Shown: in pieces, positions 43,532 to 51,142 of the stretch
Layout of the letters: each line of letters starts with the position of its first letter
Position numbering within the stretch: the first letter of the stretch is position 1
DNA from: Bacteroidia bacterium
GTDB taxonomy: Bacteria; Bacteroidota; Bacteroidia; J057
NCBI GenBank assembly: GCA_022760475.1
Contig: JALEFZ010000089.1
Span: 62,001 to 126,000, forward strand
Reading direction: 5' to 3'
Length of the DNA: 64,000 bases
Notes under the pieces: model-generated
What the model saw: the letters and a program-made list of their open reading frames with translations, nothing else
Told to the model about the DNA's origin: nothing
Database searches by the model: none
Program-made: the position numbers and the translations under genes

Positions 43532-44212
43532 TTACTTTTTACCTTTTCTTGCTGGTGAGTTTTTCACCATTACTTTTTCTTGCCACCTTCCGTCGTCAAT
43601 TTTGAATTGTATCCGATAAATTCCTTTGTTCCAGCTTTGGGTATTCAAAACTAGCTCGAATCCTTTGGGCTTCTGAAGGATTTTATTGTTGTAAACCAAG
43701 CGTCCATCATGGCCATATACCCTTACTACAAGGGTAGAAATTCTCAATTTTTGGAATCTTAGTGAAAGGCTGTGGTTATACTTGTCTTCGATCATCAACA
43801 AAGACTTATTTCCATCTAGGTCAACGGTGCTGATTCCTTCCCCATTATCAACCTCCATAAAGATCGCATCCTGTGGGACGGTCTTTCTTATATGAATGGG
43901 AAACTCTTCCAGTCTCTTTTGTTTAAGGTCTTTAGGTGTCTCTGCAGTATTTACTGTAATGGGTTCATCCTCTGAGATTTCTGTAGTCTTTACATCATCA
44001 GCCAGAAGGCCACGACGTAGTTGGGCTTCCTGTCGCAGAAAGGAGATTTCATCAGCAAGGAGTATTGAATCCTCCTTATATCCCAATTCCAATACACGCT
44101 CATCGAAGACTGAAATATCAAACAACTTCATCTGTGCCATGAGTTTGCCTTGGCCAAAAGCCAGCACAAAGATGAATAGGATTGCTCTGGTAAGAAGTAC
44201 AGGTTTATGCAT
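43532..44212 (-). CDS. Secreted protein with C-terminal T9SS-like beta domain, unknown function
   Basis: A 226-residue protein with an N-terminal signal (ILFIFVLAFGQGKLMAQ) and a charged, probably helical middle. The C-terminal ~80 residues form a beta-sandwich similar to T9SS sorting-domain-like modules (STLVVRVYGHDGRLVYNNKI, NKGIYRIQFKIDDGRWQEKV). It lacks the usual PNP start, and its basic tail (SPARKGKK) is unlike a classical sorting signal, so T9SS export is uncertain. The rest is not recognised. Confidence 0.7.
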   Translation of the reverse strand: MHKPVLLTRAILFIFVLAFGQGKLMAQMKLFDISVFDERVLELGYKEDSILLADEISFLRQEAQLRRGLLADDVKTTEISEDEPITVNTAETPKDLKQKRLEEFPIHIRKTVPQDAIFMEVDNGEGISTVDLDGNKSLLMIEDKYNHSLSLRFQKLRISTLVVRVYGHDGRLVYNNKILQKPKGFELVLNTQSWNKGIYRIQFKIDDGRWQEKVMVKNSPARKGKK

Positions 44213-44521
44213 GAATTTGATTTCTTGCTATAAAATAAACGTAATAAATCAAATAATTATTGGGCTTTCTTGCCGAATAATGAAATAAGTTCATTTAACT
44301 GTACAAATTTTGTTCCGTGTAATATTTTCAATTCAAAGAAAGAGAAAGTAGAAGCTAATTTGTTCATTTGTGCAAGGCTTGGAAGTACTTTTTTATGTTG
44401 GTTGTAAAATTCACAGTTTGAACTGTTTGGGGCTGTTTTTTTCAATGTGTAATTTATTGTTCAGTTTTTGGGTGTAGAAAAATGTCCTATGTAAGTTTAG
44501 GGATACTAAATAAGATCTTTC
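44213..44521. other. 309-bp intergenic region with msrB promoter
   Basis: A divergent gap, AT-rich, with no recognisable gene. The right end holds the msrB promoter candidate at 44467-44499. The left end must hold the promoter of the 226-residue secreted protein gene, for which no exact consensus was seen. Confidence 0.5.
44467..44499 (+). promoter_or_regulatory. Bacteroidota-type promoter of msrB
   Basis: A -33 TTTG (44467-44470), a 21-bp spacer and a -7 TAAGTTTA (44492-44499, 7 of 8 to TAnnTTTG) lie 22 bp before the ATG. The spacing is within the known 17-23 bp range. Confidence 0.5.
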
Positions 44522-45923: not shown

Positions 45924-46940
45924 TTATTCCAGGGCAATATTCTTAAGGAAGCTCGTGAAATGTTTTGCGGGGATAATCCCAATCGGACCTTCGTAGATTC
46001 CACCTTCTCCTTTGTGGTCATAAACTTTGACTGTGAGGACATTCACCTGATTGGGAAGTAGCAGGTTGGGGGGAATAAAATAGCCACGAAGCTGCTTGTA
46101 TGCCCAGCTATTTCCAGGATCCGGGATGCTTCCATCCTCCTTGATACCGGTGCTTCCTATTCTGACTCCATTCAGGTATACCACATCCATGTCGTCGATC
46201 AGGCCAAGGGTAAGTACCATTTGTTCTTTGGTGAGCTCTTCGGGGCAGCGGAAATCCTTTCTATAGCATGCGAAACCATTGTAGTGCTTGTAGCCCTGGT
46301 TCTCCCAAAAGCCGGGTACCATTAATTTATCCCAATCTACTCCATCATTGACCAGACAGGATTCATCTTTTTGAAGTTTCCTGAAATCCCAAAGACCTTG
46401 TAAATCAAAAAACTCTTTGTGTAGCCCCTTCTTTCCATAGATTCCTATATCGCCTCTCAAGATTCCACCCTCATAATAGTGGTCATATACCCTTACTGCG
46501 ATTACATTTTTACCAGATGTATTTATCAGTTCTCTTGGAATGAGGTACCATCTTTTTGAATTGTAAGCTGTAGAGAAGTGGGGGGGAAAGGAGCCCGATG
46601 AGCCAATCATTACCCCATTGAGGAAAACTTCATCGGCATCATCGATCTCTCCCAAAGAGAGATAAAGGTCTTGTCCTGTAGGCAGCTCATTGGAAAAGAA
46701 TGATTTCCTATACCATGCAAACCCATCATAGCCCTCAAAGCCTTCGTTTTCCCATTGTTCGGGAACCTTGACTCTATCCCAGTTGGAGTCGTCATAATAA
46801 GGAGATGCCCAAGCAGTTTTGTCTCCAATGGTAAAGGCCCACTGGCCACTCAGATCGATGAGTTTTTCAACATCAGCTTGTACAGCTGTAGTGATGAGAA
46901 GCATGAAAAACAGGGCGGCGATGATTCTGATTGTTTTCAT
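45924..46940 (-). CDS. Secreted protein of two GH2-type sugar-binding jelly rolls, no catalytic domain
   Basis: A 338-residue protein with a Sec signal (FFMLLITTAVQA) and two tandem copies of a ~145-residue galactose-binding-like domain (about 28-169 and 178-325). Each copy runs DLSGQWAFxxGD, VPEQWENEGFEGYDGFAWYR, LSLGEIDDADEVFLNGVMIG, then VRVYDxxxxGGIxxGxIGI. This fold is the N-terminal module of glycoside hydrolase family 2 enzymes, but the catalytic TIM barrel is missing. It is a paralogue of the adjacent upstream gene. It is the last gene of a kinase-regulator-protease-binding-protein array. Carbohydrate binding is inferred. Confidence 0.85.
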   Translation of the reverse strand: MKTIRIIAALFFMLLITTAVQADVEKLIDLSGQWAFTIGDKTAWASPYYDDSNWDRVKVPEQWENEGFEGYDGFAWYRKSFFSNELPTGQDLYLSLGEIDDADEVFLNGVMIGSSGSFPPHFSTAYNSKRWYLIPRELINTSGKNVIAVRVYDHYYEGGILRGDIGIYGKKGLHKEFFDLQGLWDFRKLQKDESCLVNDGVDWDKLMVPGFWENQGYKHYNGFACYRKDFRCPEELTKEQMVLTLGLIDDMDVVYLNGVRIGSTGIKEDGSIPDPGNSWAYKQLRGYFIPPNLLLPNQVNVLTVKVYDHKGEGGIYEGPIGIIPAKHFTSFLKNIALE

Positions 46941-46961
46941 TCTTTTTGATTTTTCTTCCTG

Positions 46962-46979
46962 ACTTCCCCGAAGGGAAGT
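46962..46979 (-). other. Hairpin with TTCG loop between the two jelly-roll genes
   Basis: A 7-bp stem with a TTCG tetraloop on the minus strand, followed by an A-rich rather than T-rich stretch, in the 95-bp gap between the paralogues. It is not a classical terminator. It could stabilise or process the mRNA of the downstream gene. Confidence 0.5.
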
Positions 46980-47035
46980 TCTGGAAGACCGTTTATACTA
47001 CTATTAACAATGAGCCAAATTGATGGTTGTAAGGG

Positions 47036-48172
47036 TTATTGATTTTGACACCAGAGGTGTTTGCCAGTTTGTTGCTTGTGTGGGTTACAGTACACGTTTG
47101 CTTTCTTGCTTCGAGAGCTTTTCCAAAAGGAGGTATAGTCTTCAGCACGAATTAATCCTACAGGGCCTTCGTAGATTCCTCCTTGTTCAAGCCCATCGTA
47201 TACCTTTACTTGCAGCATATTGTTTCCTGCTTGCAGTACTCCTGATGGTATAGGGTAGGCTCTGTCTTTGAGCCACTCATTGCCATTCAGGTTGCCCTTC
47301 CAGGCATCTTCGTCTCCGGTACTGCCTACAAGGATGTCATTGATATAAGTTCGATCAACGTCATCTACTTTCCCCAGGACAAGTACCCAGGAGTCATTTG
47401 CCTGTTCATCTGACATCGAGAATTCTTTTTTGTAGGTAGCATAGCCATCGTAGTCGAAGATTCCCTGGCTTTCCCAGGTAGAGGGAACATACATGTCTAC
47501 CCAATCTTCTACTTGTGGATAGCCACGGGTATAAGTGGTTCTGAATTTCCACATTCCTTCTAGTGAGATTTCCATAAACTGGGCATCTTCGCGGGTGCGA
47601 AATCCCAGGATATCCGAAAGGAATCCTCCGTCATACTCGGCATCAAATACCCTGATGGCAATTTGAATTTTTTCGTTTTTGGTCTGTTCAGGAGAAAGCA
47701 TGTATGTCCTTTCTCTATTGTAGGCAGTGATGAATTTTGGTGGGAATTGGCCACTTTGTCCAACCAGGGCACCATCCACGAATACTTCATCCACATCATC
47801 AATCCTGCCCAGGTATAGCTCAAGGGTCTTTCCTCTAAGTGCAGGATCAATTTTTACTTCCTTGCGATACCAAGCGTAACCATTGTATCCTTCGAAGCCC
47901 TGCTTTTCCCAGTTCTCAGCCGCGCTGATTTCTTCCCAGTTTTCATCCTGAAAATCTTTTTCTTTCCACTCGGGGTTGTCAAGGATGTTAAACTTCCACT
48001 TTCCGGAAAACTTCTGGTCCAGTTTGACATTGCTGACGGGCTTTACTCCCTTAGAAAAAAGGGCCATTTTCATGTTCCATGGCTGTGCCAAAAGTATCAG
48101 GATAGGAAGTCCTATCAGGAGGTAGATGGCCAGGGTTCTCAGTGATTGGATGAAGGATTCTCTCATAATCAT
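47036..48172 (-). CDS. Membrane-anchored protein of two GH2-type sugar-binding jelly rolls
   Basis: A 378-residue paralogue of the neighbouring secreted protein. It has an N-terminal signal-anchor helix (LRTLAIYLLIGLPILILLAQ) and two jelly-roll copies (about 55-195 and 203-345). Shared features are ENWEKQGFEGYNGYAWYRKE, YLGRIDDVDEVFVDGALVGQ and VKVYDGLEQGGIYEGPVGL. No catalytic domain follows. The last ~28 residues, after TSFWKSS, have no counterpart in the paralogue and contain two Cys and many basic residues. They may be a natural tail or the result of a lost stop. The start overlaps the stop of the aspartic-protease gene (ATGA). The first start codon could be 48172 or 48166. Confidence 0.83.
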   Translation of the reverse strand: MIMRESFIQSLRTLAIYLLIGLPILILLAQPWNMKMALFSKGVKPVSNVKLDQKFSGKWKFNILDNPEWKEKDFQDENWEEISAAENWEKQGFEGYNGYAWYRKEVKIDPALRGKTLELYLGRIDDVDEVFVDGALVGQSGQFPPKFITAYNRERTYMLSPEQTKNEKIQIAIRVFDAEYDGGFLSDILGFRTREDAQFMEISLEGMWKFRTTYTRGYPQVEDWVDMYVPSTWESQGIFDYDGYATYKKEFSMSDEQANDSWVLVLGKVDDVDRTYINDILVGSTGDEDAWKGNLNGNEWLKDRAYPIPSGVLQAGNNMLQVKVYDGLEQGGIYEGPVGLIRAEDYTSFWKSSRSKKANVYCNPHKQQTGKHLWCQNQ

Positions 48173-48666
48173 TTTGATTTTTGAATCAATACCTTATTAG
48201 TGGAATAGTCGATGACAAAACCATATTTTCTCATGATGTCGGAGCCAATGATTCCACTTATTTTGACTCCTGTCTTTCCATAAATGCCTTCTACAACGTG
48301 GTTCATGTTAAAGGCAAGTATCCTGGATTTTATTTTTTGGGGACCGAGATAGATTTCTGCCTTCTTGGTTGCCTTGACTTGTTGTCTTTTACCTTCTACT
48401 CCCTGGATGTGATGCTCACCAATTACAGGCTGAGTTTCAAATCCATAATCTTGTTGTGCTTCAATGTTTAGGAGGCTGATGTCTGCTCCTGTGTCAAGTA
48501 GGAAATACGTTTTCCTGCCGTTGATCATGCCTTTTACAATAGGTTTCGGCCTGAACGATACTACTTTTACTTCATGCCCTGAGGGGCTTATCATGGCTAC
48601 CTGAGTGAAGAACACCAAAAACAGGCAGCAGATACTAACTGGAATGTTTTTAATTGGATGGCGCAT
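48169..48666 (-). CDS. Retropepsin-like aspartic protease
   Basis: A 165-residue protein with an N-terminal hydrophobic signal or anchor (SICCLFLVFFTQVAMI) and one clan AA protease lobe. The catalytic motif is FLLDTGADISLLN (Asp58). The second structural motif is ISGIIGSDIMRKYGFVIDY, as in single-lobe retropepsins that act as homodimers. It is predicted to face the periplasm. It overlaps the downstream membrane-anchored jelly-roll gene by 4 bp and lies 62 bp below the response regulator gene. The protease substrate is unknown. The co-encoded jelly-roll proteins are candidates. Confidence 0.87.
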   Translation of the reverse strand: MRHPIKNIPVSICCLFLVFFTQVAMISPSGHEVKVVSFRPKPIVKGMINGRKTYFLLDTGADISLLNIEAQQDYGFETQPVIGEHHIQGVEGKRQQVKATKKAEIYLGPQKIKSRILAFNMNHVVEGIYGKTGVKISGIIGSDIMRKYGFVIDYSTNKVLIQKSK

Positions 48667-48728
48667 TTTTGAGGATGTTTATTTAGCGTTATGATTAAAA
48701 ATACGCCCATTCCACTTAGGGGATGTCA

Positions 48729-49454
48729 TCAGGAGGTAGACCTTTGTAAAGGATTGTCATGTGTTGCGATGAGTTTGTATCCTATACCATGGACGGTAAG
48801 GATAATCGAGGGTGAACTGGGTTGATTTTCAACTACTTGCCTGAGCTTTACGATGAAGTTGTCAACTGTCCTTGTTGTGGGCATTTGATCATAGTCCCAG
48901 ACATTTTTTAGCAAATCATCCCTACTAACTACTTTATTCTGATTTTCAAATAAATATTCCAAAAGCTGAAAAGCCTTGTGGGACAATTTCACCTCCTTAT
49001 CATCCTGGAATGCCTTGAAGGACATAAAGTCGACTTTTAATCGGCCAATAGTCGCTTCTTTGCTGGTACTCTTCGAGGGTACATTGTTGTTACTTCTCCT
49101 TAATATGGCTTTAACCCTGGCCAGAAGCTCACGCAGGCCAAATGGCTTGCTCAGGTAGTCATCTGCACCCAGTTCAAGGCCCAGGACTTTGTCAATCTCT
49201 TCCCCCTTGGCAGAAAGCATCAGGATAGGAGTCAGGTTGTCCTGTTGTCTGATCTGTTTACACACATCAAAGCCGGACAGCTTGGGCATCATGATATCCA
49301 GGATAATCAGGTCGTAGGTATTTGCCAATGCCAGCTTAAGGCCTTCTTCGCCATCTGCTGCTGCATCTACTTCATAGCCATCGAAGCCCAGGTTATCGGT
49401 CAATCCCATCCTCATGGATGGTTCATCTTCAACGATCAGTATTCTTGCTTTCAT
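48729..49454 (-). CDS. OmpR/PhoB-family response regulator
   Basis: A 241-residue two-domain regulator. The receiver domain has acidic residues D10/E11, phosphoacceptor D53 (LIILDIMMP), S81 and K103 (YLSKPF). The C-terminal winged helix (about 135-230) has LSHKAFQLLEYLFENQNKVVSRDDLL and TRTVDNFIVKLRQVVE. It is translated with the histidine kinase (ATGA overlap) and is followed by the protease and jelly-roll genes, which are likely targets or functional partners. Confidence 0.94.
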   Translation of the reverse strand: MKARILIVEDEPSMRMGLTDNLGFDGYEVDAAADGEEGLKLALANTYDLIILDIMMPKLSGFDVCKQIRQQDNLTPILMLSAKGEEIDKVLGLELGADDYLSKPFGLRELLARVKAILRRSNNNVPSKSTSKEATIGRLKVDFMSFKAFQDDKEVKLSHKAFQLLEYLFENQNKVVSRDDLLKNVWDYDQMPTTRTVDNFIVKLRQVVENQPSSPSIILTVHGIGYKLIATHDNPLQRSTS

Positions 49455-51013
49455 TCTTTAGGTTTTTTGGGTGTCTGTAAGGGAAACCAGAGGGTAAAAG
49501 TGCTGCCTTCACCCAATTGACTTTCCAATGAAATCCGCCCCTGATGTGCTTTCATGATATCTTGTACCAATGAAAGACCTAATCCTGTCCCTTGAACAGA
49601 ATAAAGGGAGCCTTTGGTTACCCTGAAAAACTTATCAAAAATGGCCTTTTGATGTTCAGGACTGATGCCAATCCCTTGATCTGATACCGAAAGGCCAAAC
49701 TCTTTATTCCCTTTTTGAAAAAATATCTTGATGAACTTTTTTTCCTCACTGTACTTGACAGCATTGTCAATCAGGTTAACCACTGCTTCGGATATGGCTC
49801 CGTGATCCAGGCTTAGCATAGGCGAGGAATCAGGACATGCTAATTCCCAATCGAAACCTTTTTGTTTCAAATGATACTCATAAGTATACATGGTGTCCTT
49901 TACCAATTTGCAGATGTCATGATCCTGAAAGGTAAATGCCCTCTTTCCTGAATCCAATTCAGAAAAATTCAGGATCTTGTTGACTATACCTGTCAGTCGT
50001 TCGGATTCTTGCCTGATAATGCGGTGGTATTCCTCTTTTTTATCCTCCGTAGGTACCCTCTTTAGTTCAAGCGTTTCTGCAAACATCCTGATAAGGGCCA
50101 GGGGAGTGCGAAGTTCATGTGAAACATTCGAAACGAAGTCCGACTTATACTGTGCCAATTCAAGTTCCCGGCGTAGGTTTCGAAATACGAGGAATACTAC
50201 TGCAATGAGTATCACATTCAACCCAATTAGCATCCACAGGTTGACGTTGGCTCGCTGTCTTACCGTATCCTCGATGGTAACACCTGTGGAGTATACATAG
50301 AGGGTTTGGTCAGGCAAGATCCAGACCTTCTCTTCTTTGACCAGTTCTCCTGTGAAATTCTTTTTGGTGTAAAAAATACCCATGTTTTTTCGCTGGTCAT
50401 GCACCACAAATACAAACCTTCCTCGGCTCAACTGCTGAAGTCTGGGGCCAAGAACCTCGAAGGTGAATTGTTTGATGTTAATGACCAGGGCTGCCAATAT
50501 CCCCTTGTTTTTATTCTTTCCAACCACACAAAGCAAAATTGCTCTGCTAGAATCGTTTTTGATGGTTAAGGGAAATTTCTTTTGATAATCGGCTTCAAAG
50601 TAGCGACCCAGTTTTTCGATCAACCCTTCATTTTCTGCCAATATATTTTCAATTGGCAAATTTTCGGCATGAAAGCTACTGTCGTTGACTTTCCATCCCA
50701 TGTTTTCAAGTCCCAGTTTCTGGAAGTCATAAAGGTACATGGCATCCACAGACCAATGGTTATTCAGGAAGGCATCCAGGGATTCCTGAGAATAATCTTC
50801 AGCCAGGTTGAGTTCTGACAACCAGTTTTGGACAATGTCATCGGCATATTGATTGGCTGCGAAGGTAATGGAAGACAATTGTTGGTCGTAGATTTGGGTT
50901 AATTCTTCTTCTGTTTGGTTGAGATTGTAAATTTCAAATAATGAGAAGAACAGTATGGGCATGAGAAAGCCCAACAGAAGAATGAGGCCTATTTGTTTAC
51001 TTTTTGACGACAA
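49451..51013 (-). CDS. Membrane sensor histidine kinase
   Basis: A 520-residue sensor kinase. TM1 spans about 7-27 and TM2 about 258-278, enclosing a ~230-residue periplasmic sensor region with no recognised named domain. No HAMP is evident after TM2. The HisKA dimerisation helix carries the phosphoacceptor in SNVSHELRTPLALIR (H299). The ATPase domain shows N box VNLIDNAVKYS, G1 DQGIGIS, F box FDKFFR and G2 GTGLGLSL. All catalytic boxes are intact. It overlaps the response regulator gene by 4 bp and heads the five-gene minus-strand array. Confidence 0.94.
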   Translation of the reverse strand: MSSKSKQIGLILLLGFLMPILFFSLFEIYNLNQTEEELTQIYDQQLSSITFAANQYADDIVQNWLSELNLAEDYSQESLDAFLNNHWSVDAMYLYDFQKLGLENMGWKVNDSSFHAENLPIENILAENEGLIEKLGRYFEADYQKKFPLTIKNDSSRAILLCVVGKNKNKGILAALVINIKQFTFEVLGPRLQQLSRGRFVFVVHDQRKNMGIFYTKKNFTGELVKEEKVWILPDQTLYVYSTGVTIEDTVRQRANVNLWMLIGLNVILIAVVFLVFRNLRRELELAQYKSDFVSNVSHELRTPLALIRMFAETLELKRVPTEDKKEEYHRIIRQESERLTGIVNKILNFSELDSGKRAFTFQDHDICKLVKDTMYTYEYHLKQKGFDWELACPDSSPMLSLDHGAISEAVVNLIDNAVKYSEEKKFIKIFFQKGNKEFGLSVSDQGIGISPEHQKAIFDKFFRVTKGSLYSVQGTGLGLSLVQDIMKAHQGRISLESQLGEGSTFTLWFPLQTPKKPKE

Positions 51014-51030: not shown

Positions 51031-51142
51031 GTTATTCCTTAAATATAGGATCAAATTGGGATTTTTGGAGATCTTCCGTGTATGTATATGGTAAGGGATT
51101 GTAAAAGTTTGTCATCGTAGCCAAAGTGAAAATCGCTTAGAA

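Follow-up and report, generated by a model that had tools for sequence, protein, structure and literature searches.

The CpxA-CpxR-CpxP and ZraS-ZraR-ZraP systems, in which a two-component system induces small exported accessory proteins that are active where the sensor is, appear to be the closest working analogues of the locus described here, a five-gene array within a 64,000-nucleotide stretch of a Bacteroidia bacterium genome (assembly GCA_022760475.1, contig JALEFZ010000089.1, positions 62,001 to 126,000; hereafter the window). The array encodes a sensor histidine kinase, a response regulator, an exported aspartic protease and two double jelly-roll proteins (JR1 and JR2), and it is likely to be a self-contained envelope-sensing two-component circuit, the exported products of which are the JR proteins and the protein encoded between them and the regulator, in a position termed here the variable slot. 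It differs from the Cpx and Zra systems in its output, the double JR proteins, and in a much narrower regulon; its regulator is of the OmpR/PhoB type, whereas ZraR is a sigma-54-type regulator. Pairs of a periplasmic binding protein and a kinase, namely LuxP-LuxQ, TorT-TorS and ChvE-VirA, would provide the mechanistic model if the JR proteins were co-sensors, but their folds differ, and the JR partner gene here has the regulator’s own predicted site. The CpxR box, GTAAA-N(4-8)-GTAAA (PMC5063474), resembles the operator predicted below in that both are short direct repeats with a period of about 10 bp, GTMA being the reverse complement of TKAC. Membership of the Cpx system was rejected, as the kinase scored 115.7 bits against a CpxA cut-off of 486, and the regulator 164 bits against a CpxR cut-off of 341; the slot proteins gave no CpxP-type Pfam match and no CpxP-like gene was recognised, though the LTxxQ motif itself was not searched for. 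A limited search of the open-licence literature found no description of a module of kinase and jelly-roll proteins.

An earlier note on this DNA, made from the sequence alone, had described the five-gene array; the open reading frames (ORFs) all lie on the minus strand, their order, coordinates and 4-bp overlaps are confirmed, and Pfam bears out the note’s calls of kinase, regulator, protease and jelly rolls, as well as its claim that JR1 and JR2 lack a catalytic domain, both giving N-domain-type matches only. The genes, in the order in which they are read, are:

49451..51013, minus strand: sensor histidine kinase, 520 amino acids (aa), TTG start (Pfam HisKA and HATPase_c)
48729..49454, minus strand: OmpR/PhoB-family response regulator, 241 aa (Pfam Response_reg and Trans_reg_C)
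48169..48666, minus strand: exported single-lobe retropepsin-like aspartic protease (Pfam RVP/Asp_protease_2, E about 3e-8)
47036..48172, minus strand: JR1, double jelly-roll protein with an N-terminal hydrophobic anchor (Pfam Glyco_hydro_2_N; family alignment)
45924..46940, minus strand: JR2, double jelly-roll protein with a signal peptide (Pfam BetaGal_ABD2 and Glyco_hydro_2_N)

The kinase gene overlaps that of the regulator by 4 bp, and the protease gene that of JR1 by the same length.

These genes are best read as a dedicated two-component circuit whose exported regulon is tiny, predicted to consist of a sensor, a regulator, a promoter of its own and a second promoter for the exported proteins, because the components co-occur, predicted sites lie in the window, and exact sites precede unlinked slot-type proteins elsewhere. 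A check for conserved synteny, proposed in the earlier note, found the array beyond this genome, and neither restriction to one genome nor a lack of co-occurrence was seen. Within the window’s family, the double JR, the kinase sensor and the protease are found in the same four of 13 genomes (the window’s own, G000, and G002, G003 and G010), protease and double JR occurring together in all four and being absent from the other nine. The related arrays in the three other genomes share roughly 37-48% JR identity with the window. G003 has the same gene order (kinase-regulator-protease-JR-JR); G002 has two proteases, two JR genes and a divergently oriented kinase gene; and G010 has protease-protease-JR on one contig and kinase-regulator on another.

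A single-sequence search of the genome contigs with JR1 gave no match, whereas an alignment-based JR profile search of the named genomes yielded 449 relatives, of which the loci of the best 80 were examined. These 80 come from Ignavibacteriota, Marinilabiliales and other Bacteroidales, Calditrichota, KSB1, Rhodothermota and Cytophagales. Each is a free-standing exported protein of about 350 aa, and many occur as tandem pairs. At no fewer than 57 of these loci a kinase of the window’s family and a regulator of the OmpR type adjoin the JR genes, mostly upstream and in one clade downstream, so that kinase family, regulator and double JR are found together in Bacteroidota, Ignavibacteriota, Calditrichota and their relatives. 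In one fixed set of 396 genomes, with the double JR counted at E below 1e-60, the sensor domain was present in 40, the double JR in 41 and both in 39 (Fisher 2e-50, a value that overstates independence because the sampled genomes are related). Adjacency alone does not yield this association, since several genomes carry kinase and JR unlinked (e.g. G653, G544, G401, G413, G439 and G010). In the sole kinase-only genome, G488, the regulator is about 600 bp from the contig end, which falls just inside a slot-like ORF; the rest of that genome yielded no full double JR. The two JR-only genomes (G430 and G612, loci L183 and L184) belong to one genus and have neither the kinase family nor the operator described next, so that this genus offers a natural setting for testing what the JR proteins do apart from the circuit.

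An expectation-maximisation search of the regions preceding the first slot or JR gene at 86 non-redundant loci, the window excluded, returned a direct repeat of three half-sites with a 10-bp period, TGACAATTnnTKACAAYnnnTKAC, which mostly lies 60-140 bp ahead of the start codon. Its log-likelihood was 871, compared with 81-87 in shuffled sets. Sites of at least 20 bits numbered 108 in 1.48 Mb of loci and none in 0.88 Mb of shuffled DNA; 50 lie before slot genes, 41 before JR genes and two before kinases, and almost all of the other 15 precede other small exported proteins, slot-type genes included. The window contains two predicted sites of this repeat:

51091..51114, minus strand: predicted regulator-binding site 1, TGACAAACTTTTACAATCCCTTAC, located 77 bp before the start of the kinase gene; the best matrix match in the 64-kb window
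48736..48769, minus strand: predicted regulator-binding site 2, TCGCAACACATGACAATCCTTTACAAAGGTCTAC, four half-sites at 10-bp spacing; the second and third best matches in the window (48736/48746)

Site 2 falls inside the regulator gene, at its 3' end, and precedes the protease by about 70 bp. A matrix trained on Ignavibacteriota and Calditrichota only still ranks the window sites first (26.7, 19.1 and 16.2, the next unrelated match scoring 8.2) and places its top site in the slot or JR promoter of 37 of 40 Bacteroidales loci, while a plain pattern search of the window gave exactly two matches where 0.04 were expected. Because predicted sites stand upstream of the kinase and, separately, of the protease, the array is probably not a single simple operon. 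Independent promoters had been named in the earlier note as grounds for doubting the grouping; a second predicted operator does precede the protease, but it ties the genes together, being the same site as that upstream of the kinase. With synteny conserved, protease and JR co-occurring and a predicted regulator site common to both, the view that the five genes form a real functional unit holds.

Beyond the array, exact genome-wide matches are few, and three of the five precede unlinked slot-type proteins, at distances of 106-136 bp (G454, G619 and G340). At loci L235, L237 and L233 an exact operator stands before unlinked small exported proteins, which we read as parts of the regulon encoded at a distance from the array. 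Strong operators also accompany other unannotated exported proteins, 145-176 aa long, near arrays (L056 near 5490, L110 near 5587, L076 near 3763, L079 near 4843 and L116 near 11878), and gave no described Pfam family where scanned. One-mismatch sites in the window’s genome (contigs C32, C44 and C52:147488) were rejected as regulon members, reversed-pattern controls being equally numerous; the one on C32 (L238, position 4482) precedes the gene of a TolC-like outer-membrane protein by about 95 bp and, with controls equal, could be due to chance.

As in OmpR/PhoB-type two-component systems, the kinase has a HisKA His helix and HATPase_c and the regulator a receiver Asp and a winged helix, with Pfam scores well above the cut-offs; the predicted targets also carry the tandem direct repeat, with a 10-bp period, of operators of this type. 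The kinase comprises a first transmembrane helix, a predicted periplasmic dCache-like domain (about residues 29-246), a second transmembrane helix, HisKA with H299 in a VSHELRTP motif, and HATPase_c; the regulator has an LIILDIMMP motif. In the model of the sensor (predicted local distance difference test score, pLDDT, 90.7), a long helix leads into two PAS-like lobes, an order of secondary structure that fits dCache. Foldseek matches in the PDB are mostly dCache ligand-binding domains, but with low TM-scores of 0.3-0.4, and Pfam gave no Cache match in the kinase; a dCache-like fold is a prediction from the model. Conservation of the sensor is highest in the membrane-proximal helix (residues 29-62; 2.76 bits, compared with 1.41 for the distal Cache lobe), as would fit an interface between proteins. 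The best NCBIfam models for the regulator, YycF, RpaB and PhoB, all fall below their cut-offs. A phosphate (PhoR-PhoB) or WalK-WalR identity was rejected, as the PnpS, PhoR, WalK, YycF and PhoB equivalog models are likewise below cut-off. Nor is this a hybrid two-component system of polysaccharide utilisation loci, as kinase and regulator are separate genes and no SusC/SusD was found among the scanned neighbours.

JR1 and JR2 are 40% identical over 324 aa and consist of two jelly-roll repeats each; JR1 appears to be anchored by an uncleaved helix and JR2 to be exported by its signal peptide. The model of JR2 (pLDDT 92.7) has as PDB relatives the N-domains of glycoside hydrolase family 2 (GH2), over one jelly roll, and sialate O-acetylesterases, and both sequence and fold are shared with the jelly rolls of these enzymes (7kmm, 1e-29; 5uj6 and 6d50). 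The difference is that here two tandem jelly rolls make up the whole exported protein, with no catalytic domain; membership of GH2 itself was rejected, since the catalytic TIM barrel is absent and N-domain-type matches are all that is found across JR1 and JR2. Their likeness to carbohydrate-binding modules is one of fold relatedness, from which glycan binding may be inferred. Among the relatives, a single jelly roll is fused to acetyl-xylan-esterase-type domains at L037 (4564-6327) and L133, and to melibiase-type enzymes at L128 and L129.

The steps of regulation in the proposed circuit are very probable. The kinase would sense an extracytoplasmic cue through its dCache-like domain and, as its motifs suggest, phosphorylate the regulator encoded next to it; the regulator would bind the 10-bp-phased TKACAW direct repeat, a computed site, and drive, most likely as an activator, two units, its own and that of the slot protein and JR set, here protease-JR1-JR2. 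The exported products would act in the same compartment as the kinase sensor, where the JR proteins could be dedicated partners of the kinase, either glycan-binding co-sensors or feedback regulators, and the slot protein (here the protease, in other lineages a HEAT-like or unannotated exported protein) could trim, titrate or tune them. That the JR proteins act on the kinase directly, as co-sensor or feedback partner, is suggested tentatively, at somewhat below an even chance; that they are glycan-binding envelope effectors without feedback is a real possibility, if not one we would lean towards. A wider proposal appears unlikely, though conceivable, namely a new three-component sensing class spanning Bacteroidota, Ignavibacteriota and Calditrichota, in which tandem GH2-type jelly rolls devoid of a catalytic domain would read glycans and serve one dCache kinase family as its obligate co-sensors; the operator would be conserved across phyla and the slot would hold an exchangeable exported modulator, one lineage’s retropepsin tuning the JR signal by cleavage.

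The strongest alternative to a dedicated sensing circuit is envelope-glycan maintenance, with JR proteins as structural glycan-binding effectors, slot proteins as helpers, and a kinase that senses envelope damage or a small metabolite without contacting the JR proteins. This explanation has a substantial minority chance. In its favour, the JR proteins share their fold with glycan-processing enzymes, the regulon is exported and the sensor resembles small-molecule dCache domains; against it, the near one-to-one coupling of sensor family and JR family, with almost no other regulon members, exceeds what general maintenance would need.

The earlier note’s own model, proteolysis-regulated glycan sensing with the protease as the key step, cleaving JR or kinase, turns on what fills the variable slot. 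The window’s protease carries the motifs LLDTGADISLL and IIGSDIM, and its profile matches retroviral proteases and Ddi1; a D[TS]G[AS] motif and the family profile place it, as predicted from sequence, in the retropepsin-like clan AA. It shares the single-lobe clan AA form, signal peptide and DTG motif with RloA of Pseudomonas (PMC12239564) and RimB, but scores below the TIGR02281 cut-off and lies amid two-component and jelly-roll genes, theirs being a RimK-like operon setting. In favour of a proteolytic step are the translational coupling of protease and JR1, a catalytic motif that is invariant (D58 and G60 in six relatives), strong protease-profile matches confined to the four family genomes with JR and kinase, always beside JR, and a separate predicted site for each of the two protease genes in G002. 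Across loci, however, the gene between regulator and JR varies: the occupant is HEAT-like in Ignavibacteriota (Pfam HEAT_2), an aspartic protease in the window’s family, a 120-aa protein with no Pfam match in Bacteroidales, and in some Cytophagales a weakly secretion-tail-like protein. A TonB-C-like fold suspected by eye in the Bacteroidales protein gave no Pfam match and was set aside. The protease is a lineage-specific occupant of the slot, outside the core of kinase, regulator and double JR, and it does not stand as the centre of the layout, most taxa having unrelated small exported proteins in its place. Because most lineages run the circuit without it, cleavage cannot be a general step, and proteolysis as the key step is improbable.

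Polysaccharide utilisation, in which the JR proteins would belong with neighbouring hydrolases and the two-component system would regulate degradation, is very improbable: JR domains are common to GH2 enzymes, melibiase-type enzymes and esterases, but no hydrolase or SusC/SusD gene adjoins the window array, JR flanks in other loci are varied and unrelated, and there is almost no regulon beyond exported slot proteins.

Several points weigh against the dedicated circuit itself. Most sites outside the window belong to the training set and are therefore present by construction, which does not apply to four results: the window sites, the placement of Bacteroidales sites by the matrix from other phyla, the exact matches before unlinked slot-type proteins, and the lack of the site in the two JR-only genomes. 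With a Bacteroidales-only matrix the window sites stand out less (13.4 and 12.5, compared with 8.9), and only 18 of 32 Ignavibacteriota-group loci have its top site in the promoter. At some kinase-adjacent loci no site could be recognised ahead of the first gene called (for example L034 before a 162-aa gene, and L196 by this matrix), partly because start sites were called mechanically. Regulation and JR roles alike are predictions from sequence and models, and the co-sensor or feedback role of the JR proteins rests on analogy.

The gap between JR1 and JR2 holds one further feature:

46954..46988, minus strand: hairpin, -19.6 kcal/mol, z -3.4 compared with shuffles

It is possibly an attenuator or mRNA-stability element, and may set the JR1:JR2 protein ratio. 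An Rfam search gave no match, and PADLOC returned sub-domain matches of kinase, receiver and protease only (E about 1e-4 to 1e-16) and no defence system. A short stretch within the regulator gene resembles two other places in the same genome. Beyond JR2, at 43532-44212 on the minus strand, lies a gene for a 226-aa exported protein with a weakly secretion-tail/DUF3244-like C-terminus and a distant likeness to slot proteins seen in some Cytophagales. The region upstream of it showed no good operator (best 4.0 bits at 44464).

The proposed circuit unites a widespread but unassigned kinase family, a double-JR family and unannotated small exported proteins; since its operator is predicted and its regulon very small, it is directly testable. 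It would provide a clear case of enzyme-derived sugar-binding modules tied to signalling, and of one regulatory slot filled by unrelated proteins in different lineages. Cultured hosts, including Labilibaculum, Prolixibacter, Carboxylicivirga, Melioribacter, Fulvivirga and Roseithermus, could reveal what the circuit senses.

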